Source of the DNA: a virus
Reading direction: 5' to 3' (one strand)
DNA: 42,771 bases
IMG/VR virus record: IMGVR_UViG_3300030117_004193
Coordinates: 1-42,771 of that record
How positions within the stretch are numbered: the first letter of the stretch is position 1; every line of letters begins with the position of its first letter. Shown here piece by piece: positions 884 to 21,009 of the stretch. Both the position numbers and the translations under genes were made by a program. The notes beneath the pieces are model-generated. The model had not been told where the DNA came from. It saw only the letters and a list, made by a program, of their open reading frames with translations, and searched no databases.

Positions 884-1131
884 AAGATACTGAAATGAAC
901 GGGGATAACTGGTATATCAAACGACACCCCAAAGATAAAGGTTTGTTTATAGTAAAACATATAACCGTATTCGGAACTGAATCTAAAACTGTAGACTCAT
1001 TAATTGAGGCTATGAAGATTATAGATAAGTTTAAAAATCAAGAAGATTGGATTTTACAAAAGCGTGAAGAGTTTGACGCGTTTATGTTAAACAACGACGA
1101 CTTTAGAAAAGACGCAACAAGTGGCACGTAA
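871..1131 (+). CDS. Hypothetical protein, 86 aa
   Basis: Small soluble protein starting inside the end of the preceding gene. Its stop codon TAA (1129-1131) lies inside the first copy of the 31-bp dyad element (1126-1156), so the gene ends exactly where the repeated regulatory-looking element starts. No recognisable domain. Confidence 0.65.
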   Translation: MEKIKDTEMNGDNWYIKRHPKDKGLFIVKHITVFGTESKTVDSLIEAMKIIDKFKNQEDWILQKREEFDAFMLNNDDFRKDATSGT

Positions 1132-1156
1132 CAAATACGACAATAGTAAGATAATA
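1126..1156 (+). promoter_or_regulatory. Dyad element, copy A
   Basis: Copy A begins ACGTAACAAATACGA and after a fixed spacing ends with a TAAGATAATA block. It matches copies at 2168-2198 and 7888-7918 in length and spacing. It overlaps the stop codon of the 86-aa gene and lies upstream of the KTSC gene. It could be a phage promoter, an operator or an RNA signal; the sequence alone does not decide. Confidence 0.6.
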
Positions 1157-1178: not shown

Positions 1179-1397
1179 ATGAGAAAAATAAATTATGAAA
1201 CTTTATCTGTAGACTCGTCAGCAATACAGTCTATGAGATATTTTAGAAAACAAAGAAGCTTAGTAGTTAAGTTTCAAAATGATGATAACTATTTATATCA
1301 GAATGTACCTGTAAAACTATTTCAAAAAATGAGAAACAGTTATTCGATCGGTAAATTCTTTAACAAGCATATAAAAAATAACTTTCAATTAGGTTAG
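1179..1397 (+). CDS. KTSC-domain protein, 72 aa
   Basis: The whole protein matches the pattern of the KTSC domain family. Near the start is a VDSSAI motif, then a central strand pair with LVVKF and a YxYxNVP motif, and then a SIGKFFN motif near residue 60 before the C-terminus. KTSC proteins are small stand-alone domains common in phages and bacteria. The family has been linked by annotation to RNA or nucleic-acid binding, but its function is not firmly known. It is the first gene after dyad element A, with a 22-base A/T-only leader, so it may start its own transcript. Confidence 0.8.
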   Translation: MRKINYETLSVDSSAIQSMRYFRKQRSLVVKFQNDDNYLYQNVPVKLFQKMRNSYSIGKFFNKHIKNNFQLG

Positions 1398-1992: not shown

Positions 1993-2173
1993 AATAACAA
2001 CAGATGGTGAATTAATAGTTAAGAATGATACTATAAATGAAACACCAAGATTTAGAGGTAACAAAGATGATTTAATTGATTATTTAAATCACAGAGTTAA
2101 AGCAATGGAAGAGCATATAAAGTTTCTTGAATCAGAATGCAATGCTTTATATAGCCAATTACCAATTACGTAA
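1973..2173 (+). CDS. Small coiled-coil hypothetical protein, about 66 aa
   Basis: The frame opens at a TTG (1973) overlapping the end of the previous gene; the next in-frame ATG is much further in, so the true start is uncertain. The C-terminal half (DDLIDYLNHRVKAMEEHIKF and beyond) is a clear amphipathic helix, likely a coiled coil for oligomerisation. Its TAA stop lies inside dyad element B (2168-2198), just as the 86-aa gene ends inside element A. Function unknown. Confidence 0.6.
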   Translation: MNIQKYKITTDGELIVKNDTINETPRFRGNKDDLIDYLNHRVKAMEEHIKFLESECNALYSQLPIT

Positions 2174-2198
2174 CAAATACGAATTAATAAAGATAATA
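2168..2198 (+). promoter_or_regulatory. Dyad element, copy B
   Basis: The first 15 bases, ACGTAACAAATACGA, are identical to copy A. The 16 bases after that end in TAAAGATAATA at the same spacing. It overlaps the stop codon of the upstream gene and lies 5 bases before the next ATG at 2204. A promoter this close to the start would give a leaderless or near-leaderless message, so an operator or RNA-level signal is also possible. Confidence 0.6.
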
Positions 2199-2203
2199 AC
2201 AAT

Positions 2204-2374
2204 ATGAAATTAACAATACTAGATTATACACACGGCAAATTACATATATATAATGTTGATAGTCAAGAAGACGTTATGCACCATGTTGACGCTCATAATA
2301 CTATGAGTATGGAAGCTGACGGTTGGATGTTATCACAAGATAATGAATTTGAAATAATAAGACATGATGTTTAA
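2204..2374 (+). CDS. Small hypothetical protein, 56 aa
   Basis: ATG at 2204 directly follows dyad element B. The 56-residue product is acidic with several His and Met residues and reads as a compact alpha/beta protein. A Trp-containing GWMLSQDNEFE stretch sits near the C-terminus. Its end overlaps the membrane miniprotein at 2364. No family recognised. Confidence 0.6.
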   Translation: MKLTILDYTHGKLHIYNVDSQEDVMHHVDAHNTMSMEADGWMLSQDNEFEIIRHDV

Positions 2375-2662: not shown

Positions 2663-3283
2663 ATGTTATTTGAAAGAAATTTGAAATACTTAAACGACAA
2701 TAGAATATTATACAGACGTGATCCTATCAGTGATATACCAACAGAAAGATACAATTGGGGTTGGTATTATGAAGACGGAACTTATGAATGTTATGCTCTA
2801 TTTCGTAGTAAAGCTAAGATAACTACGTATAAATCTCTTAAATGGCACCTATTAGTGCTATGGTATCTTAATCCTAAAATGACACACTCTGATTTTGATA
2901 CACTTGCAGAATTTATATGTAATAAAGAAAATGGCTTTATAACATTCTATTGTCCTAAAAGAATACAAGAAAAGATAATTGATGAATGTTATTTATATGA
3001 CCAAGAAGAACCACCAAAAAATAAATTAAGAAAAATTATATTCAGAGATAACTCTGGATTAACAACTAAACAAAAACAACAAATAATAGGTAAGTTAATA
3101 GGTAGACAAAAAAAAGCACAACCAGAAGATATATATGAAGCTATGCTGTCTATTAACGATAATAAAGAAAAGATAACAATAAATAAGATTGCTACTATTT
3201 TAAACGTATCTACAAGAACGATTTATAGAAATATAACTAAAGGATTAGTTAACGAAAAATCATTTTTAAATGAAGAGATATAA
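2663..3283 (+). CDS. Putative HTH DNA-binding protein, 206 aa
   Basis: The N-terminal two thirds is a Trp/Tyr-rich globular region I do not recognise. The C-terminus, about residues 165-200, has a helix-turn-helix pattern (KIATILNVSTRTIYRNI) like resolvase or sigma-region-4 type HTHs. It lies directly upstream of, and overlaps by 14 bases, the phage sigma factor gene. A role in transcription control or replication initiation is therefore plausible. The start abuts the previous stop. Confidence 0.65.
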   Translation: MLFERNLKYLNDNRILYRRDPISDIPTERYNWGWYYEDGTYECYALFRSKAKITTYKSLKWHLLVLWYLNPKMTHSDFDTLAEFICNKENGFITFYCPKRIQEKIIDECYLYDQEEPPKNKLRKIIFRDNSGLTTKQKQQIIGKLIGRQKKAQPEDIYEAMLSINDNKEKITINKIATILNVSTRTIYRNITKGLVNEKSFLNEEI

Positions 3284-4025
3284 CGTACAAAACTATATAA
3301 GATATAAAAACGATCTTGATAATAGTTTAATTTTAGCCTCAGAAAATAAATACTCTGAGAGACATACTTTAATAATAGAACACTTACCACTAGTCGAGTC
3401 CGTAGCTAGAAGATTTTCAACGTCCGATCAAGCTTCAGGTGTACTTAGTATAAATGATATGATACAAGCAGGCTCAGAAGGTTTAATATTAGCTATAGAC
3501 AGAATTGATTGGGATGTAGTTAATGAATCAGATGACCCGCTTAAAACTTTAAATTCATTTTTAACTAAGAGAATAAGAGGCGCAATACGAAGAGAGATTG
3601 ATATAAATAGGGGTAACATGCGTATACCTGAATATAAGTTAAATGAGATTAGAAAATCTGATGGTGGCGATAAGAAGATAGTACAAATGTTTTTTAACAG
3701 TATATTTTCTAGCATAGATATTGAATATGAAAATGAAGAAGACAATGTTGCAATGCAGGTACCTGATACAAGTAAACAATATAATATTGATATTATAAAT
3801 AAATACTTATTAGGTTTGATGAAGGCGAATCTATCTGAAAGAGAATATGATGTACTACGTATGAGCTATGGGCTTGATTGTGATAAAATGAGTGCAAAAG
3901 ATATTGCACATAAACTTAACATAGAAGGCACTGCCAACTACGTTCGCGTTTCGCAGATAAAACGAGACGCTATTGATAATTTAATTAGAACAGTTGATAA
4001 ATCACAAGTATTAGATTTTTTATGA
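3270..4025 (+). CDS. Phage RNA polymerase sigma-70 family factor, 251 aa
   Basis: It redirects host RNA polymerase to phage promoters. Region 2 spans about residues 38-110: LPLVESVARRF, then INDMIQAGSEGLILAIDRID, then FLTKRIRGAIRREID. This contains the core-binding and -10 recognition helices. Region 4 spans about 187-240, starting LSEREYDVLRMSYGLD and ending in a recognition helix around NYVRVSQIKRDAIDNL. Region 1.1 is absent and the linker is short, as in group 3 or phage sigma factors. It overlaps the HTH gene upstream and shares an ATGA with the secreted protein downstream. It probably drives middle or late phage genes, perhaps those of the minus-strand block. Confidence 0.9.
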   Translation: MKRYNVQNYIRYKNDLDNSLILASENKYSERHTLIIEHLPLVESVARRFSTSDQASGVLSINDMIQAGSEGLILAIDRIDWDVVNESDDPLKTLNSFLTKRIRGAIRREIDINRGNMRIPEYKLNEIRKSDGGDKKIVQMFFNSIFSSIDIEYENEEDNVAMQVPDTSKQYNIDIINKYLLGLMKANLSEREYDVLRMSYGLDCDKMSAKDIAHKLNIEGTANYVRVSQIKRDAIDNLIRTVDKSQVLDFL

Positions 4026-4911: not shown

Positions 4912-5655
4912 ATGGTAAAAGAAGAAGTCTTAGAAAAACTTAAATCTGACGAACACTATTATGGAGAGTTTGGAAAACAGTATTTAAGTAACTCGGACAT
5001 ATCCGCATTATTAAAAGATCCACTAAGTTTTAAAAAGCCGTCTGAACAAACAGCAGCTTTCTTAGTGGGCGGATACTTTCATACTAGTATACTTGAACCA
5101 GATAAATTACATAAATATAAAATTGTAAAATCTAAAACAAGAAATACTAAATTATATAAAGAAGTATCAGAGGGTGAGTTATGCTTATTAGAGCATGAAG
5201 CTGACCGTATAGATTTAATGCGAGAACGTTTGCTTAGTAACAATGTATGTAAAGATTATATACAAGGTTCACGAAAAGAATCACGTATCAAATACGAACA
5301 ACCGGGGATAGTAAGGTTGTTTGGAAATATGTGGAAAGGTAAAGCAGATATTATAAATGAAGATGAACAATTAATTGTTGATCTAAAAACAAGTGCTGAT
5401 GTAAATAAATTTAAATCATCAGCTTATCGTTATAATTATGACAGTCAAGCTTACATTTATAGAGAAATGTTTGGTTATGATATGTTATTTATTGTAATGG
5501 ATAAAACAACACATCAAATAGGAATATTTGATTGTTCAGATGAATTCTATGAATCAGGTAGAGATAAAGTTATTAGAGCTACTGAAGCATATGAACTATT
5601 CTTTAAAACTGATGGCTTCGACCCATCGCAATATTTTTTAACTAAAACACTTTAA
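4912..5655 (+). CDS. RecE-like PD-(D/E)XK exonuclease, 247 aa
   Basis: Predicted 5'-3' double-strand exonuclease that makes the single strands used by the adjacent ERF protein. Family signatures seen are a GGYFH motif with His at about residue 57; GKADII with Asp at about 146; VDLKTS with Asp 157 and Lys 159; and the downstream YDSQAYIY motif. These are the catalytic pieces of the lambda-exonuclease/RecE type of PD-(D/E)XK nucleases (Exonuclease VIII/DUF3799-like). The ATG abuts the ERF stop codon directly, indicating coupled expression. Confidence 0.88.
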   Translation: MVKEEVLEKLKSDEHYYGEFGKQYLSNSDISALLKDPLSFKKPSEQTAAFLVGGYFHTSILEPDKLHKYKIVKSKTRNTKLYKEVSEGELCLLEHEADRIDLMRERLLSNNVCKDYIQGSRKESRIKYEQPGIVRLFGNMWKGKADIINEDEQLIVDLKTSADVNKFKSSAYRYNYDSQAYIYREMFGYDMLFIVMDKTTHQIGIFDCSDEFYESGRDKVIRATEAYELFFKTDGFDPSQYFLTKTL

Positions 5656-6173: not shown

Positions 6174-7886
6174 ATGCAAGTAAATACCACGGAAATTAAT
6201 GGTTTCCAGATTGAACAGTTTAACCAATTTGATTTAAGTGTTGGCGCACATGAAAGCATATGTCCTATATGTTCTCATTTACGCAAACCTGAAAATAAAA
6301 AAAAGAAGTGTGCTTCGTTAGACTGGGAAACAGGTTTAGGTACTTGCCACAACTGCAATAAAACGTTTCAATTACATACCTTCAAAAGAAAAGGTGAAAG
6401 TGATAAAGTTTATGTCCGTCCGGATTATACTCCTAAACAGCCGAGCTCGAAGGTTATAGAATGGTTTAAAGGTAGAGGTATATCTCAGCAGACTCTTAAA
6501 GACTTAAACGTCTCTGAGGGTCCTGAGTATATGCCACAAACCAATAAAGAAGAAAATACAATTAAGTTTAATTATATGATGGGTGGTGAACTCATCAATA
6601 TAAAATACAGAGATGGCCGCAAGAATTTTAAATTATATAAAGGTGCTGAAAAGATCTTTTATAATATAGATTCTATTGTAGGCCATTCTTTTTGTGTAAT
6701 AGTTGAAGGTGAAATAGATGTATTATCTTTACATGAAGCTGGCATTAGCAATGTAATATCTGTACCTAACGGCGCAACACTTGGTAATAATAATTTAGAT
6801 TACTTAGATAATTGTATAGATTATTTTTCTGATAAAGATAAAGTAATAATTGCAGTTGATCAAGATGAACCAGGCCAAGCATTAAGACAAGAGTTAATAA
6901 GAAGACTTGGTGCTGAGGTTTGTTATACATCTTCTTTTGATGATTGTAAAGACGCTAATGAATACTTATTAAAACATGGCAAAGAAAAACTTATTTATGC
7001 TATTCAGAACTCAAAACCTGTACCACTTGAAAACGTTACAACATTTAAAGATATTGAAAACGAGGTTACAGATTTTGTACAGAATGGATTTAAACCAGGA
7101 TTTCAAATTGGTTTACGTAATTTTGATGAAATATTTTCTACCTATACTGGCCAGTTTATTACTGTTACTGGCATTCCTTCTTCTGGTAAATCAGATTTTG
7201 TGGATCAAATGGTTATTGGATACAATAAACAGTATAATTGGAAAATAGCTTTTGCGTCACCAGAAAATGCACCTACATATCTACATGCTCATAAATTAAT
7301 GAGAAAATTATGGGAAGGTATGCCATCTAAAAAAGATATATCAAATGATAAATGGAAACAAATATCAGAATATATAAATGATAATTTCTTTTTTATTGAT
7401 ATGGAACGTTATACTTTAGATTCTGTATTAAAGAAAGGTGCAGAACTTGTAAAGCGTAAAGGTATTAAATGTTTAGTAATTGATCCTTTTAATAAGATAA
7501 GAGATGTTGATTCTAATACAGAAGATGTAAATCGTTATACAATGGAGTACTTAACTAAGATTGAAATATTTGCAAAAAAATATGATGTATTAGTTATGAT
7601 AGTTGCGCACCCTACAAAGATGTATAAAGATTCAAGTGGTAAAATAGAAGAGCCTACAATGTATAACATTAAAGGTGGAGGTGAATGGTATGACGCTAGT
7701 TACCACGGATTATTAGTTCATAGAGATTATGAAAATAAAACAACAAAGGTTAAAGTATTAAAAGTTAAATTTCAAAACTTAGGTGAAAACGGCGCGGAAT
7801 GTTTCTTTACATGGGAACCAAAGTCTGGTTGTTATATACCTCATACTGAAACATTAACTGAAGATACAATATTACCTTGGGAATGA
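6174..7886 (+). CDS. Primase-helicase, T7 gp4 type, 570 aa
   Basis: Replication primase and replicative helicase in one chain. An N-terminal zinc-binding domain has Cys pairs at about 30/33 and 58/61. The Toprim primase core has VIVEGEIDVLSLHEAG near 175 and IIAVDQDEPG near 225. The C-terminal RecA/DnaB-type helicase has Walker A GIPSSGKS at about 333-340 and Walker B CLVIDPF at about residues 435-440. Further helicase motifs include VMIVAHPTK and an arginine-finger region near HGLLVHRDYE. Length agrees with T7-like primase-helicases. It follows the SSB-like gene and ends at dyad element C. Confidence 0.95.
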   Translation: MQVNTTEINGFQIEQFNQFDLSVGAHESICPICSHLRKPENKKKKCASLDWETGLGTCHNCNKTFQLHTFKRKGESDKVYVRPDYTPKQPSSKVIEWFKGRGISQQTLKDLNVSEGPEYMPQTNKEENTIKFNYMMGGELINIKYRDGRKNFKLYKGAEKIFYNIDSIVGHSFCVIVEGEIDVLSLHEAGISNVISVPNGATLGNNNLDYLDNCIDYFSDKDKVIIAVDQDEPGQALRQELIRRLGAEVCYTSSFDDCKDANEYLLKHGKEKLIYAIQNSKPVPLENVTTFKDIENEVTDFVQNGFKPGFQIGLRNFDEIFSTYTGQFITVTGIPSSGKSDFVDQMVIGYNKQYNWKIAFASPENAPTYLHAHKLMRKLWEGMPSKKDISNDKWKQISEYINDNFFFIDMERYTLDSVLKKGAELVKRKGIKCLVIDPFNKIRDVDSNTEDVNRYTMEYLTKIEIFAKKYDVLVMIVAHPTKMYKDSSGKIEEPTMYNIKGGGEWYDASYHGLLVHRDYENKTTKVKVLKVKFQNLGENGAECFFTWEPKSGCYIPHTETLTEDTILPWE

Positions 7887-7887
7887 T

Positions 7888-7918
7888 ACGTATTAAATAC
7901 GATATAATAAAGATAATA
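7888..7918 (+). promoter_or_regulatory. Dyad element, copy C
   Basis: This copy has the best dyad: CGTATT, one central A, then AATACG, a perfect 6+6 inverted repeat. After the usual spacing it ends in AAAGATAATA, and the last A is also the first base of the ATG at 7918. It starts just after the primase-helicase stop codon. The start codon's overlap with the element makes a plain promoter awkward unless the message is leaderless. Confidence 0.6.
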
Positions 7919-8220
7919 TGGGTGGAACTGTAAGACCGTTAGATGTTGGTAGAAAAAGAAAGAAAGGCGTTATGGGAACATACTTCCCAACTCCTGAAGA
8001 AATAAAAGCATCTAATTGGTGTATTAATAATAATGTAAGAATATCTTACAAACCTGAAACTACAGGTTCAAGACCAAAATGTTGGTATATAACTATTAAT
8101 ATAGGCCCATACAAAAAAGGAGAAAAAGCAAATGTTTCACCTGAATGTTATAAACCAGGTGAATGTCAAAAACAAATGTATAAAACTTGTTTATATTATT
8201 ATGAGAAATATAGAAAATGA
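7918..8220 (+). CDS. Conserved-looking hypothetical protein, 100 aa
   Basis: Basic start with GGTVRPLDVGRKRKKG, a middle part containing WCINNNVRIS and WYITINIG, and a C-terminal CYKPGECQKQMYKTCLYYY. Four Cys residues could bind a metal, but spacing does not match a known zinc finger. It lies between the primase-helicase and thymidylate synthase genes, overlapping the latter by 20 bases. Function unknown. Confidence 0.7.
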   Translation: MGGTVRPLDVGRKRKKGVMGTYFPTPEEIKASNWCINNNVRISYKPETTGSRPKCWYITINIGPYKKGEKANVSPECYKPGECQKQMYKTCLYYYEKYRK

Positions 8221-14412: not shown

Positions 14413-17400
14413 TTATTTTTTCTTAATTGTTTTCTTTTTAATTTTTTTCTTTTTCAATCCGGTAGTTTGTGGAGTTTCACTAGAATTTTTAAATTCATTA
14501 ATACCAACATCATAAGTACTATAACCCATTGCTAACGCAATAGATTGCCATAACTGTGTTTCTTCTTCTAGCGCTGTTCTTAAATTATTAATTTTTCTTA
14601 ATACTCTATCGGCTGGTAAGTTAAACCCTACAGATAATGCGTCTGCTCCAGAAAGTATAGCTGGATTTTTTGTATCAATACCCATAGTTCTTATTTTCTC
14701 AAGCTCTTGTTTATATCTAAATCTTCTATCAATTGATAATAATTTTCTAAATTTAGAATTAAGCGGCGGCGATATACCTGATAATTCTTTTATTGTATTT
14801 ATAAACTGAGGGTTTTTCTTTTTAGTTTGCTCTATAGTTTCAATCGTAGCATTTTTAAGTGTAGATATTAGCGCACCATAAACACCAGAACCCCTTAATA
14901 CAGAATCAACCATACCGTTTGCTACATTAAAATATCTTTCTTTGTCAGTTCTGCTTTTTTCTTCTTCATCATCATCAAAATAAATACTAAATAAAGCTTG
15001 TTGTGCAGCATAAAATATTGCATTTTGTACACCTAAATAATAAATTATTTTACTTATATTAGTTTTTACGTCGCCTCTTCCGTTTATTAAATCTAAACCA
15101 GCTTTTTTAGCAAGTCTATTATATTGCATAGGTGTATTTTGAAAAGCTAATATTAATCTTCCTGCAAAACCTGCTTGTTCCATAGATATTTTATCAGGTC
15201 TTGATGATTGTTGTGTTTCTTCAGATATTTCTCTAAAATCTTTAAATGCTTCAGTTTCGGCTTTTTGCTGTGATAAACCATTCTTTTTATAACTATTTAT
15301 TCTATTTCTATAAAATGACGCACCACCTAAAGCAATAGCAAAACTATCAGCATATTGCGTTGGTAAAAATCCTTTCTTTAATATAGTTGCTATAACAGCA
15401 GCAACTTTTCTATCAGATTTTGCAGCAGCATCTGCGATTTCTTGTTCATTAATATCAGTTTTTAATCCTGATCTTCTTGATTTTAAATAATCTGAATTGA
15501 ATATAAAAGCAAAATCTTTCCAAAACTGTGGCTGATTTTTCCATGCTTTAGCTAACATAAATGGATTATTATCAGTCCAGTTTGTAAAGTTTACATTAGA
15601 TATTGTTTGTAATAAAGCAGATCTTGTATTAAAAAACATTATGGTACCAATAGAATTATTCATCCAATTTAATATAGTATTTCCTTGCGCATCTAATTGA
15701 TACGATCTATTTTTACCAGTTCCAATTCTAAATAAAGAGCTTTCCAAAGCTTTTATAAAATCTGTACCATATATAGCTTTTACTTTGTTTAAATTTTCAC
15801 CTGATAGTTTACCTCTGTTTTTATCAAAAGATCCAAATATGGCTTCTATATTATCAAAAAACGGTTTAAATGCTTCCGCTCTAGTAACTGTATTTGTAAA
15901 ACTTAATAAATCTGTAGTTAAAGTACCAGAAATCCATTCTTTAGTTGGAGGTGGATATTTACTTTCGTTATTAAAATAAACTTGTTTTAATGCATCTACA
16001 AATTCTAATTGATCAAAGTTTTGTCTAAAATATTTATTTATTTCTGTAACTTGCTCATCTCTCATACCAATAGCCTCTTCAAGATTATATCCTGTTGTAG
16101 ACCATAAATGTATTCTAATTATTTGATCATTTGTATATCCTTTAAAAACTTCTTTAGATAAATCAATTCCAGCTTTTTCTAATAGTTCTTTAGCTTCTTG
16201 TAGATAATTCGACGATGCTTGTTGATTTGCTTCAAACCTTATATACGATTCTGTTAAAGGAGTAGTTATATTATCTTTAATCCATTGTAAATGCCTATCA
16301 CCTTGTTTTCCTTTACCAGCAAATCTATATAATAAACCTAATAAATCTTCAGCTGAATAAGGAACAAATATTTTAAATTTGTTTGCTCTTCTTCCCATAT
16401 TCCTTCCTTGTGCTTCAGAAAATATTTCATCTTTATCTACGCCTTTAGTTTCTTCAAGTATTTGATTAAATTCATTACTTAATTCTGTTCGCTCTTGTTT
16501 ATCTATATTTTCATTAAATCCAAAAATTTTATTAGTTTCTAAATTTTTAATTGTTATAGTATCAAATTTATTTAATCCTTTAATTTTTTCGTTAAAAATT
16601 CTTTTAAGAGGGTGTTTTTTGCCATATTCATATTCAGCAGATTGGTTTGTTTTTAATCCAATTTCTGTTGAATTCAAAGCTGCAGCTAATTTTTCGTCAA
16701 CAATAGCTATTGCATAGTCAGATAATATTTTATCTATATCAATATCTTTTTTATAATAATATTTGTTTATCATCATGGCATTTATAAAAGATGCAGGTGA
16801 TAAATGTTCTGGTGTTGTTTTTGTATTCTTTTTTAAATTATCTTGATAGTATAATACAGGTGCAGCTAATTTTAAAATTGAATTTTTATTTTCTGCTGTT
16901 GTAGAGAGAATCATTGCTATTTGGTTTTTATCTGCATTTTTTATTACAAACTGCGCAAGTTCATTATAAAACAACATAGCATCTGCCGCTCTTATTTTAT
17001 CTTCAACAAAATTAAATTTTTTGTCTACTTCTTTAAATGTATCATATTTTTTCTTTTTAGGTATTTTAAAATTTGGAAAAGTTTTATTAAACCATTTAAA
17101 ATAACCTGTTTTTCTATTAAATAAAGTATATCTACCTTTATACAATGTTCTTGCTCCAAACGTTTGTTGGCCTAACAAATAAAATAATTCTGGAATATTT
17201 ATATCAGTCCTATCTTTGTTTTTTTCTACAAAGTTTTCTAAAATATTTATTGATTTATTAACTTCATCTTTGCTTTTAAAAAGATCTGTTAACTTTATTT
17301 TTTTACCATCTGCATCGACTAACTTCATTAGAGTTGGCATGTTTCCTGTAAACACATCTTCAAAGCCAGCCTGCATTTCCTCTTCCTTAATTTCAATGCC

Positions 17401-20400
17401 TTCTTTTTTCCTAGATACGTTTTTCCTAATAATTTTTTCAATTTCAGGATTTATTTCAGCATTACCAAATTTTTCTTGAACAGCTTTAATTGCTAATCCA
17501 ATAGCATTTGCTAAACCATCACCAGCACGCAAAGAAGCTTTTATAGTAGTTATTACTAATTTTGCTGCTGCTATAGCAAGCTCAGGTCCAATCAAACTAA
17601 ACCTTAAAGTATTATTTTGTTGAAGTTTATTTAAAAATTCTAAGCCTCTATCTAATTCTCTTATTGCTCTTTCAATAAAATTATCAGGAACTTCTTTACC
17701 CTCTATTTCTTGTATTTGTTTAAATTTTTCTGAAACTTCAGGATCTAATAATACATCAACAACTTCATCTCTTGCTAATTGATCTGCTATTTGTTTTGCT
17801 ATAGATGTTTTTCTATCACTTCTTGTACTTGAGCCTAATTCATTGCCTATAAAATAATTTACAAAATCATTTTTAACTTCGTTAAATTCTTTCTTTTTAA
17901 ATATATTTTTACCTTCAGCCGTTCTTTCTCTTAACGCTTTGCCTGTTTTAGGGTCAATAATTTTTTCAACAAAAGGTTTAAATCTTTTTGTCATTACTTC
18001 AAGCGGTAAAGAATTATATATAGCTTCTGCATTATCTTTTAAAAAGTTTGCAAATTCTACACTATCTTTACCAAATATACCATCTCTTTTAACAAGATCT
18101 GTTAATTCATTTGTAAATCCTTCAATAACTTTTTTCTTAAAGTTTTTATCTGTAACAGCTGGTAAGCTAGTACCAAAAACCTTTTTAACTGCACCAACAA
18201 CTTTATTTACTATAGCATCGTCAAGATTTAATTCTGTTTTTAATTTAGTAATAGTAGGTTGATCTATTTCAGCTTGTTCAACAGTATCTTCTATTTGTAT
18301 TTCTGTAATATCTTGTTTACCTATTATTTCTCTTTTACCTTCTTCTGTAACTCTTGTTTCAACTAATTTTTCAAAAAAGGCTGGTACTCTTTTAGGTAAG
18401 TTTTCTTTTATATATGCTCCAAATGGAACACCAGACTCTATTTTATATGTTTTTATTAAATCAGCAAAAGCAAGATTTACTTCTGATAATAAATCTTCTC
18501 TTGTAAGCGTAGTATCTTTTGTAGGATCAAAATTAGCATTTACTAGTTGATTTATAAGCCCTAAATTATTTTGAACTAATTCATTTTGTGCTCTTAATAA
18601 AGCTACAGGTGTACTATTTTCATCTTTTATAATAGCCATTAAATCTTTATTTTTTTGAGCTATTTGTTGATTTTTAGTACTTATTGTTGCTGTAGGTTCA
18701 GGAACTATAGAAAATTCTTCTTTTACTATGTTTGTTAATCTTTCATCTATATTTTCTAATTCTTGATTTACTGATTCTTGTTGAGTTGAATCTTTTTCTT
18801 GCTTAACTTCTTCTAATTTACCTTTTCTATATAATAAACTTGCTGCTTCAATTCTTGATGCACCTTTTAACTTAGGATCTAATTTTTTATCAATTTTTTC
18901 AAAAGCATCAATTTCAGCATTATTTTGTTCATACAATTCTTTTGTAATAAAACCACCATCAAATTCTTTTTTATTATTATCTTTTAAATTTTGTATATAA
19001 TCTTTCTTTTCTTTATTGTTTTGAAAATCTTTTTCTAAAAGAGATTGTCTATTAATTCTTGAAAAAGCAGCACCTCCAGCAGGTATTAAAACAGCCTGTG
19101 CTCCTCTTGTACCTTCTTGAAGATAAGATGTTAAATCTTCTTTAGTCGGCATATATTGCGTTTTATCTGCTGCCGCGGTACCAATATCTGTTACAACACC
19201 TTGTCCTATTTCTGTTAAAAACTCTATAGCTGGGATTTCTGCTAAATCTTTACCTAATGATAAAAAATCTTTACTTTTATCTACTATTTGCTTACCAATT
19301 TTTTTTGTTAATGAATTTGGCATAGCTACTTTAAATAATTTTTTAAATGGTAAAAATTCTAAAAACCCATTTATACCACCTACGATATTACTTATAAGCT
19401 CAGAGTTTTCACTCATTAACCCTAAATTAATTGCAGCTTTTTGTTTATTAACCTGCGTATCTTTTAAATTATTAGCGTTTAAATAGTCATTTATTTGTTT
19501 TTCATTTTTCTTAATAGTAGAAGCAAGTTGATCTTTAAAACTAAAACCAGCTTCTTGAATAACCATACCAAATCCTAAAGTTAAAGCAACTTGAGTAGTT
19601 ACATCAACTACTGCTTGCGGAGAACCTTTTATAATATCGCCTATAACATTTCCAACAGGTTGATTAAAATCAACTTCATTTAAAAATCTAGGATTATTTG
19701 CATAAGTTTCAGTTAACCTAGTTAATTCTTCATCTGCTTCAAGAGCTCTTAGTAATTCTAATGTTTCTTTTTCTTGTTCTTTATATAAAAACTTTTCAGC
19801 TTTATTTCGTGTAGTTCTATATGCTTTATTATTATATCTAAAAGCAACCATATCACTACCGCTTTTACCTTCAAAACCCTCTAATTCATTTTTAATATTA
19901 TCTATTCTTTTTTTAGTAGGCTCAATTTTAAATTTTTGTAAGAAACCACTACCAACTTGTGCTTCTTGTTTTTTAATTAATTCATAGCCTACTGAAAGTG
20001 GGCCATATTTAAGATCTAACCCAAGCTCTTCTCTATTTAAAACATTTCCAAATTCATCTATAAAGTTTAAACTAGATTGCACTATTCTTTTATCTATAGA
20101 TTTTAAAGCATCGTTTTCTTCAACTATTTTATTAAAATTATCATTTAATAATTTTTCAGATTTTTTATCTAGTTCTATTTCTTTAATTTTATCATTAAAA
20201 AACTTTTCTTGAGTTGATCTTAATCCAAAATATTCATTAAAAATATTAGCAGCGTTTATTTCTTCACCCGTAAATTCTTCAAAATTTACACCATAAGTAT
20301 CAGCTAATTGTTTTTGTCTTTTGCCTTGTTCAGTATTTAACCATTCATTTTCAATTTTATCCTTATCATTAGCTATTTGAGTTTTAGTTAATTCTATAGC

Positions 20401-21009
20401 TTCATTATAACTTTTTTGAATTTCATTATTAAATATTTTACCTACAGGATTTGTATCTTTTGTTAGTATATTATAAAAATCTTGTACTATTTTATTTTGG
20501 CTATCTGTATCTAAGCTCTTAAATTTTTTTAAATCATCACTATATGATTCGATAAATTTAGTTGGATTATTTGGGTTTAAATCCTCAATATCTTTTAAAA
20601 TAGCGTTGTATGTAAATTTTGAAGGGATAAATTCATTTTTAAAAAATTTATCAATGTCGGAAGTACTAGAATTATTATTAAATAAATCTAATGTTGATTT
20701 TGTAAAAGGCGGAGTAAGAGTTGTTGGGCCTTCAACATTTTGTAATACTTGTAAATATGGTTCTGCAAAATCACCATATAGATTTTTAGGAACAGGATCT
20801 TCTTGTAAATCCGAAGAACCAACTTCCAAATTGGATGCCATATTGTTTTCCTCTACAGGTGCATCCTTTTTCTCCGGTAGAGGGTCTGTATTTCCCGGCT
20901 CGTCTATTTCTTTAACAAATTTAGCTTGCGGGTTTTTTGTAATGAAATCCTCTATATTGTTTTCTTCAACAATCTGAGGTTGCTCATCTATTAAATATTC
21001 AAATTTCAT
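14413..21009 (-). CDS. Giant internal virion/ejection protein, 2,198 aa
   Basis: By position (last large structural gene, after two smaller internal-protein-like genes, before lysis) it corresponds to the gp16-type ejection protein of T7-like phages, but larger. The start has an acidic N-terminal segment (IDEQPQIVEENNIEDFITKN). Hydrophobic stretches at about 463-483 and 1130-1165 could insert into membranes. Helical Lys/Glu-rich regions dominate, and the protein ends LKKKKIKKKTIKKK. The C-terminal QLWQSIALAMGYSTYDVG recalls the ends of large polyvalent phage proteins. No transglycosylase, DFDGD polymerase or other catalytic motif was found by eye. Start chosen at ATG 21009. Confidence 0.75.
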   Translation of the reverse strand: MKFEYLIDEQPQIVEENNIEDFITKNPQAKFVKEIDEPGNTDPLPEKKDAPVEENNMASNLEVGSSDLQEDPVPKNLYGDFAEPYLQVLQNVEGPTTLTPPFTKSTLDLFNNNSSTSDIDKFFKNEFIPSKFTYNAILKDIEDLNPNNPTKFIESYSDDLKKFKSLDTDSQNKIVQDFYNILTKDTNPVGKIFNNEIQKSYNEAIELTKTQIANDKDKIENEWLNTEQGKRQKQLADTYGVNFEEFTGEEINAANIFNEYFGLRSTQEKFFNDKIKEIELDKKSEKLLNDNFNKIVEENDALKSIDKRIVQSSLNFIDEFGNVLNREELGLDLKYGPLSVGYELIKKQEAQVGSGFLQKFKIEPTKKRIDNIKNELEGFEGKSGSDMVAFRYNNKAYRTTRNKAEKFLYKEQEKETLELLRALEADEELTRLTETYANNPRFLNEVDFNQPVGNVIGDIIKGSPQAVVDVTTQVALTLGFGMVIQEAGFSFKDQLASTIKKNEKQINDYLNANNLKDTQVNKQKAAINLGLMSENSELISNIVGGINGFLEFLPFKKLFKVAMPNSLTKKIGKQIVDKSKDFLSLGKDLAEIPAIEFLTEIGQGVVTDIGTAAADKTQYMPTKEDLTSYLQEGTRGAQAVLIPAGGAAFSRINRQSLLEKDFQNNKEKKDYIQNLKDNNKKEFDGGFITKELYEQNNAEIDAFEKIDKKLDPKLKGASRIEAASLLYRKGKLEEVKQEKDSTQQESVNQELENIDERLTNIVKEEFSIVPEPTATISTKNQQIAQKNKDLMAIIKDENSTPVALLRAQNELVQNNLGLINQLVNANFDPTKDTTLTREDLLSEVNLAFADLIKTYKIESGVPFGAYIKENLPKRVPAFFEKLVETRVTEEGKREIIGKQDITEIQIEDTVEQAEIDQPTITKLKTELNLDDAIVNKVVGAVKKVFGTSLPAVTDKNFKKKVIEGFTNELTDLVKRDGIFGKDSVEFANFLKDNAEAIYNSLPLEVMTKRFKPFVEKIIDPKTGKALRERTAEGKNIFKKKEFNEVKNDFVNYFIGNELGSSTRSDRKTSIAKQIADQLARDEVVDVLLDPEVSEKFKQIQEIEGKEVPDNFIERAIRELDRGLEFLNKLQQNNTLRFSLIGPELAIAAAKLVITTIKASLRAGDGLANAIGLAIKAVQEKFGNAEINPEIEKIIRKNVSRKKEGIEIKEEEMQAGFEDVFTGNMPTLMKLVDADGKKIKLTDLFKSKDEVNKSINILENFVEKNKDRTDINIPELFYLLGQQTFGARTLYKGRYTLFNRKTGYFKWFNKTFPNFKIPKKKKYDTFKEVDKKFNFVEDKIRAADAMLFYNELAQFVIKNADKNQIAMILSTTAENKNSILKLAAPVLYYQDNLKKNTKTTPEHLSPASFINAMMINKYYYKKDIDIDKILSDYAIAIVDEKLAAALNSTEIGLKTNQSAEYEYGKKHPLKRIFNEKIKGLNKFDTITIKNLETNKIFGFNENIDKQERTELSNEFNQILEETKGVDKDEIFSEAQGRNMGRRANKFKIFVPYSAEDLLGLLYRFAGKGKQGDRHLQWIKDNITTPLTESYIRFEANQQASSNYLQEAKELLEKAGIDLSKEVFKGYTNDQIIRIHLWSTTGYNLEEAIGMRDEQVTEINKYFRQNFDQLEFVDALKQVYFNNESKYPPPTKEWISGTLTTDLLSFTNTVTRAEAFKPFFDNIEAIFGSFDKNRGKLSGENLNKVKAIYGTDFIKALESSLFRIGTGKNRSYQLDAQGNTILNWMNNSIGTIMFFNTRSALLQTISNVNFTNWTDNNPFMLAKAWKNQPQFWKDFAFIFNSDYLKSRRSGLKTDINEQEIADAAAKSDRKVAAVIATILKKGFLPTQYADSFAIALGGASFYRNRINSYKKNGLSQQKAETEAFKDFREISEETQQSSRPDKISMEQAGFAGRLILAFQNTPMQYNRLAKKAGLDLINGRGDVKTNISKIIYYLGVQNAIFYAAQQALFSIYFDDDEEEKSRTDKERYFNVANGMVDSVLRGSGVYGALISTLKNATIETIEQTKKKNPQFINTIKELSGISPPLNSKFRKLLSIDRRFRYKQELEKIRTMGIDTKNPAILSGADALSVGFNLPADRVLRKINNLRTALEEETQLWQSIALAMGYSTYDVGINEFKNSSETPQTTGLKKKKIKKKTIKKK

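Follow-up and report, generated by a model that had tools for sequence, protein, structure and literature searches.

The window analysed here, 42.8 kb long, is part of a phage contig from IMG/VR. Its primase-helicase shares 43% identity with the counterpart in Cellulophaga phage phi10:1, its terminase is nearest to that of the uncultured podovirus MW202828 (62%) and then to those of Flavobacterium elemo phages (47%), and its 2388-aa structural protein contains a crAss-type muzzle domain. Because of these likenesses, the hosts are presumably Bacteroidota. A tRNA-Met (CAT) lies at 1592–1666, between the first two copies of the element described below, and the elemo phage early region also has a tRNA-Met. 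The features of the locus are as follows.

1126–1156, plus strand: putative promoter copy A, with ACGTA at 1126–1130, AAATACGA at 1133–1140, spacer at 1141–1149 and −10 GATAATA at 1150–1156
1179–1397, plus strand: KTSC-domain gene, 3′ of copy A (PF13619, 1.7e-16)
2168–2198, plus strand: putative promoter copy B, with ACGTA at 2168–2172, AAATACGA at 2175–2182 and −10 GATAATA at 2192–2198
2204–2374, plus strand: 56-aa gene, 3′ of copy B, its start codon at the predicted +1 (ORF list, motif alignment)
2663–3283, plus strand: 206-aa protein with a C-terminal helix-turn-helix, beside the sigma gene, a rival candidate for binding the upstream box (PF08279, 3.6e-6)
3270–4025, plus strand: phage sigma factor, 251 aa, with sigma-70 regions 2 and 4 (PF04542/PF04545; NCBIfam TIGR02937, 5.8e-14; AF2 model)
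5283–5313, plus strand: look-alike of the element within a DUF3799 nuclease gene, three mismatches, −10 reading GATAGTA (shuffle scan, peptide comparison)
7888–7918, plus strand: putative promoter copy C, with ACGTA at 7888–7892, AAATACGA at 7895–7902 and −10 GATAATA at 7912–7918
7918–8220, plus strand: 100-aa gene, the first base of its ATG being the last base of copy C (ORF list)

The 31-bp element that the original prediction placed at three gene junctions is real: copies A, B and C all fit ACGTANNAAATACGA-N7-AAGATAATA with no mismatch, where 100 dinucleotide shuffles lead one to expect no match. The 16-base tail that had been taken as fixed is not, as the sequence between AAATACGA and GATAATA is free in relatives, even among orthologous copies. 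At the copy A junction, which also carries the element in G002, G003 and G004, spacer cells differ in 27 of 54 comparisons and box cells in 0 of 120. The positions of the copies at stop codons were confirmed, with A and B overlapping the TAA of the upstream ORF (1129–1131 and 2171–2173) and C beginning one base past a TGA that ends at 7886; the overlap is nevertheless explained largely by the TAA within the motif itself (CTAAA, GATAATA). The window's own record holds no copy beyond A–C, bar the look-alike at 5283. We rejected the latter as a promoter, since it is probably a coding coincidence: the peptide YExPGI is kept in relatives by other codons. The near-copy is kept in five contigs of the clade (G000–G004) under coding constraint, and in G001 and G002 it reads GATAATA and could be active by chance.

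The original prediction hung on further copies in relatives, and many were found. An exact scan of viral contigs gave nine contigs besides that of the window, all with the element at the copy C junction. Relatives were then gathered by way of their helicase and sigma factor and revealed a broader motif; a weight matrix run over 31 contigs returned 177 sites in 29 of them and 0 in Markov-shuffled sequence. Cellular genomes nearly lack the motif (12 stretches in 84,980 species, compared with at least 118 stretches in viral contigs), and several of these 12 stretches are multi-copy on small phage-looking contigs. The family consensus is tACAAACtAAAYACGA-N8-(G)GATAATAT. In the logo, the upstream block spans −37 to −22; 8–9 free bases separate it from GATAAT (−12 to −7), and position +1 is a purine. 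In the window's clade the block reads ACGTANNAAATACGA; compared with a −35 element placed about 17 bp upstream, it is longer than, and unlike, TTGACA. The −10 hexamer is related to TATAAT, being GATAAT at nearly all sites and TATAAT itself in G005 and at most G010 sites. Clade variants are fixed: ACGTA in the window's clade, ACACA in G031, TACAA in G020 and TATAAT in place of GATAAT in G005. Between orthologous copies the spacer drifts and the boxes are retained, and box variants are common to the copies of one genome (z = 15, compared with z = 6 for spacers).

All sites lie on the early-gene strand, with 176 of 176 in sigma-bearing contigs on the strand of the sigma gene, and most lie 1–9 kb upstream of that gene. 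In an unbiased dyad count, the motif dominated among the signals upstream of early genes; late-strand upstream regions showed no comparable signal, and a motif search there yielded just an A/T-rich TATATCATG start context and no second promoter class. A late gene of the window (32293, minus strand) is preceded by a terminator-like hairpin and then a conserved A/T-rich leader, TTATTATATTATATCATG, an arrangement that recurs in many relatives.

The motif alignment also revealed a start signature. Position 36 (+1) is a purine at 174 of 176 sites, usually preceded by T or C, and lies 7 nt past the last base of GATAAT, the usual start place of a sigma-70-type promoter. The purine persists at 96 of the 98 sites that remain after dropping those with an ATG there, and so is not caused by ATG codons. 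At 20 sites an ATG falls exactly on the predicted +1, with neighbouring offsets at 0 and 3; the corresponding ORFs, which include a 570-aa primase-helicase (G022, G029) and the 56-aa gene after copy B, are predicted to be translated from leaderless mRNA. The remaining genes have leaders mostly near 20 nt. In bacterial leaderless genes, about 12 bp separate the −10 box from the start codon (PMC3160421), and the 20 sites have exactly the same layout. Leaderless genes were detected in just 1 of 37 Bacteroidetes/Chlorobi genomes (PMC3160421). The motif predicts precisely placed leaderless mRNAs in this phylum, where they are considered rare.

Within the window, the predicted start of copy A is 1162, 17 nt 5′ of the ATG of the KTSC gene (1179). 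That of copy B is 2204, the A of the ATG of the 56-aa gene, and copy B lies 1.1 kb upstream of the sigma gene. The predicted start of copy C (7924) lies six bases within the 100-aa ORF, and copy C therefore probably serves the thymidylate synthase gene (ATG at 8201) and the genes behind it. The 100-aa gene (7918–8220) keeps its position family-wide, has no family match and frequently overlaps the helicase stop.

Two arrangements recur at the left end of the early region in relatives. In six contigs (G006, G011, G018, G023, G036 and G038), the leftmost site is followed by tAGTTAGGC and, about 78 bp on, by a second motif with no ORF between; this pair is a predicted tandem promoter with a short conserved transcript. 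In L138, L147, L183 and others, a conserved non-coding block, GTATTACACGTAACTA..TTGG.AACCAGCC.CTTAACTAAAAC..TTTACCCCACCCCCC, lies ahead of the first early promoter, at a distance of about 160 bp from the leftmost motif on its upstream side, and could be a replication origin or a genome-end signal. The window begins too far right to include it.

Judged by its boxes and its start signature, the element is very probably a promoter. The two other roles that had been considered for it, an operator and an RNA processing hairpin, fared poorly. An operator, that is, a dyad bound by a repressor or activator and not itself a promoter, draws on the perfect CGTATT-A-AATACG inverted repeat, which is present as described but confined to copy C; the dyad is lost in relatives as natural variation and absent from the family consensus ACAAACTAAAYACGA. 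An operator would also leave the invariant GATAATA, the +1 purine and the start codons at +1 unexplained, and we consider it highly improbable. We give still less credence to an RNA element that would work within the transcript, whether as a processing hairpin or as a signal for translation. The copies do lie at gene junctions on one strand, as such an element would, but no stable fold was found in or just after them (folding z-scores 0.2, −1.1 and 1.0), the only Rfam match was a tRNA, and the +1 signature points to initiation downstream, which would leave most of the element untranscribed from its own site.

Comparison of junctions suggests how the putative promoters come and go. At the copy C junction, the helicase gene directly adjoins or overlaps its neighbour in most family members, whereas in the window's clade an insert of about 30 bp with the promoter separates them; L014 is without the insert and looks to have lost it again. 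At site B in G003 and G004, the upstream gene is a different one, but the promoter and the gene downstream of it are retained. From the patterns at sites B and C, promoters thus appear to be gained and lost at gene junctions, with promoter and downstream gene staying together; the proposal that the copies mark boundaries of swapped gene cassettes holds in this weak sense only. A stronger version would make the element a mobile promoter cassette with its main role in recombination at gene junctions. Such a role would fit site C, which the window shares with most of its clade and which L014 and the wider family lack, the two genes otherwise abutting there, and it would fit site B as well. The model for it is the promoter-early-stem-loop (PeSL) cassette of T4-type phages (Arbiol 2010, as cited in PMC4503421), in which a stem-loop follows the promoter. 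The likeness to that cassette is that early promoters are repeated at many junctions of one phage and gained or lost there; the difference is that the copies here have no stem-loop and no conserved or longer shared flanks. Spacers are near-random among the copies of one genome, hence there were no recent transpositions, and by the tree the L014 case looks like simple loss within the clade. We regard a mobile cassette as very unlikely. Recent duplication of the copies was likewise rejected, as spacers are nearly as different within genomes as between them.

The preferred reading is that the element belongs to a set of early promoters in this phage lineage, and that the host core RNA polymerase most likely reads it when equipped with the phage's sigma factor (3270–4025). 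The promoter would consist of the −37 to −22 block, a free spacer, (G/T)ATAAT and a purine start 7 nt past the hexamer. Its copies would drive single early genes or short operons, including the operon with the sigma gene, and because copies precede that operon, sigma would amplify its own synthesis; in a subset, the start codon would be the first base of the mRNA.

Several observations bear on sigma as the reader. The PDB matches of its AF2 model are sigma factors, and its gene is present in 30 of the 31 relatives. Among 38 contigs picked by the motif alone, 28 encode sigma; in the other ten, transcription from the motif cluster would run straight off the nearby contig edge, and they lack the helicase too, so that sigma is found in 28 of the 28 motif contigs that reach past its position. 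Three outgroup phages without sigma (MW202828, elemoE and phi10:1) are also without the motif. G041 (L105/L106) encodes a sigma 55% identical to that of the window and yet has no motif; G030 also has none but is uninformative, since its sequence stops about 1 kb short of the sigma gene on the upstream side. All core early genes co-occur with the motif, and for this reason the association does not single out sigma. The sharing of box variants within genomes, with its higher z-score than that of spacers, is as expected from a co-evolving trans-acting reader. The change from ACAAAC to ACGTAA near −34 has no obvious matching change in sigma region 4.2, and T replacing G at −12 (G005/G010) has none in region 2.4; the motif variant was therefore rejected as a read-out of either region, there being no clear residue-to-base covariation.

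The main rival is an early promoter read by the host holoenzyme, through either an unknown host sigma or a host sigma aided by a phage activator at −37 to −22, for which the helix-turn-helix protein (2663–3283) is a candidate. T4 middle promoters are of this kind, MotA acting with host sigma through a MotA box at −30 joined to a sigma-70 −10. The element resembles them in its TATAAT-type −10 hexamer and in a second conserved box centred near −30, and differs in that the box sequence is unrelated and the phage has its own sigma. In favour of the host holoenzyme, the earliest genes, which precede the sigma gene, already have sites in front of them; the 15-bp block, with its centre near −30, exceeds the usual length of a −35 element; sigma region 4.2 showed no covariation with the motif; and the helix-turn-helix gene adjoins the sigma gene. 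The Bacteroidota vegetative promoter, with TTTG at −33 and TAnnTTTG at −7 (PMC6847099), belongs to the presumed hosts and is A/T-rich as the element is, but the −10/−7 and upstream elements of the two differ. This primary sigma consensus is absent from the logo and not enriched upstream of phage genes. Moreover, a host sigma with the specificity of the motif should leave promoters in host genomes, where almost none exist. We consider a host-holoenzyme reader possible but rather unlikely.

A polymerase of the phage's own was rejected as the reader: the long ORFs contain no plausible DFDxD polymerase (four incidental matches), and a search for a T7-type polymerase gave no match, although its control search was silent as well and the result therefore does not show absence.

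The original prediction had offered, as one option, a promoter read by the sigma factor at 3270; its promoter part is well supported and sigma as the reader reasonably so. If the element is a promoter, the phage sigma probably reads it, and we favour, with slightly more reserve, the whole account of early promoters read by host core and phage sigma. The closest known systems are phiEco32 and 7-11, whose gp36 and gp47, respectively, are phage-encoded sigma factors with promoters of their own; their consensus sequences are tAATGTAtA and GTAAtg-16-aCTA, and they serve middle or late genes (PMC8948821). Shared with these phages are a sigma-70-family phage sigma that works with host core (as proposed here), sites scattered before phage genes, a start 6–9 bp from the last element, and late genes that run opposite to the early and middle ones. 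The sites described here differ in serving early genes, even those before the sigma gene, and in being absent from the late strand. Our search of open-licence papers found neither a description of the motif nor a comparable promoter map.

As read from its sequence, the predicted promoter is common to many uncultured marine phages, and its build differs from that of the promoters known from their presumed hosts. For this large group, akin to phages of flavobacteria, the analysis provides a promoter map at base resolution, predicted starts included. The map marks small uncharacterised genes predicted to be expressed first, which are candidates for host take-over or anti-defence; promoter-guided discovery of this sort has worked for archaeal viruses (PMC11065993). 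It also assigns to a phage sigma a testable candidate target sequence; being orthogonal to the host consensus, the pair could become an expression tool for Bacteroidota.

Since sites precede genes ahead of sigma, the first of them need a reader before new sigma is made, and no host-type promoter is apparent before those genes, which counts against the preferred reading; what reads the first promoters is the question raised by the map. One candidate lies in a giant protein whose gene closes the structural cluster.

18205–18702, minus strand: sigma-region-2-like domain in a 2198-aa giant protein (14413–21009) (PHROG sigma families, 4e-12 and 4e-8; AF2 model)

The domain occupies residues ~770–935. 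Its Pfam Sigma70_r2 match is weak, and the top 50 PDB matches of its AF2 model are all RNA polymerase sigma chains, mostly with probability ~1 and with E values of 0.03 or worse. Strong scores for the domain were obtained in 17 contigs of the set. The full-length giant proteins of the motif-bearing G001, G005, G007, G010 and G012 have no recognisable sigma-region-2 domain, and the motif therefore does not depend on the domain, which may nevertheless contribute to first-wave transcription in a subset of the phages. In the boldest form of this idea, the giant protein would be ejected with the DNA as a virion-borne sigma, directing host core to GATAAT promoters before the stand-alone sigma is made; such a factor would be the sigma counterpart of virion RNA polymerases, and we rate it a long shot. 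A milder form, in which the stand-alone sigma is itself packaged in the virion, is equally open. The giant protein was also considered, and rejected on its sequence, as a virion RNA polymerase like that of crAss phi14:2. Across relatives, the middle of the giant protein is swapped, a polynucleotide-kinase/zeta-toxin-like AAA domain taking its place in G007, and the C-terminal third is conserved.
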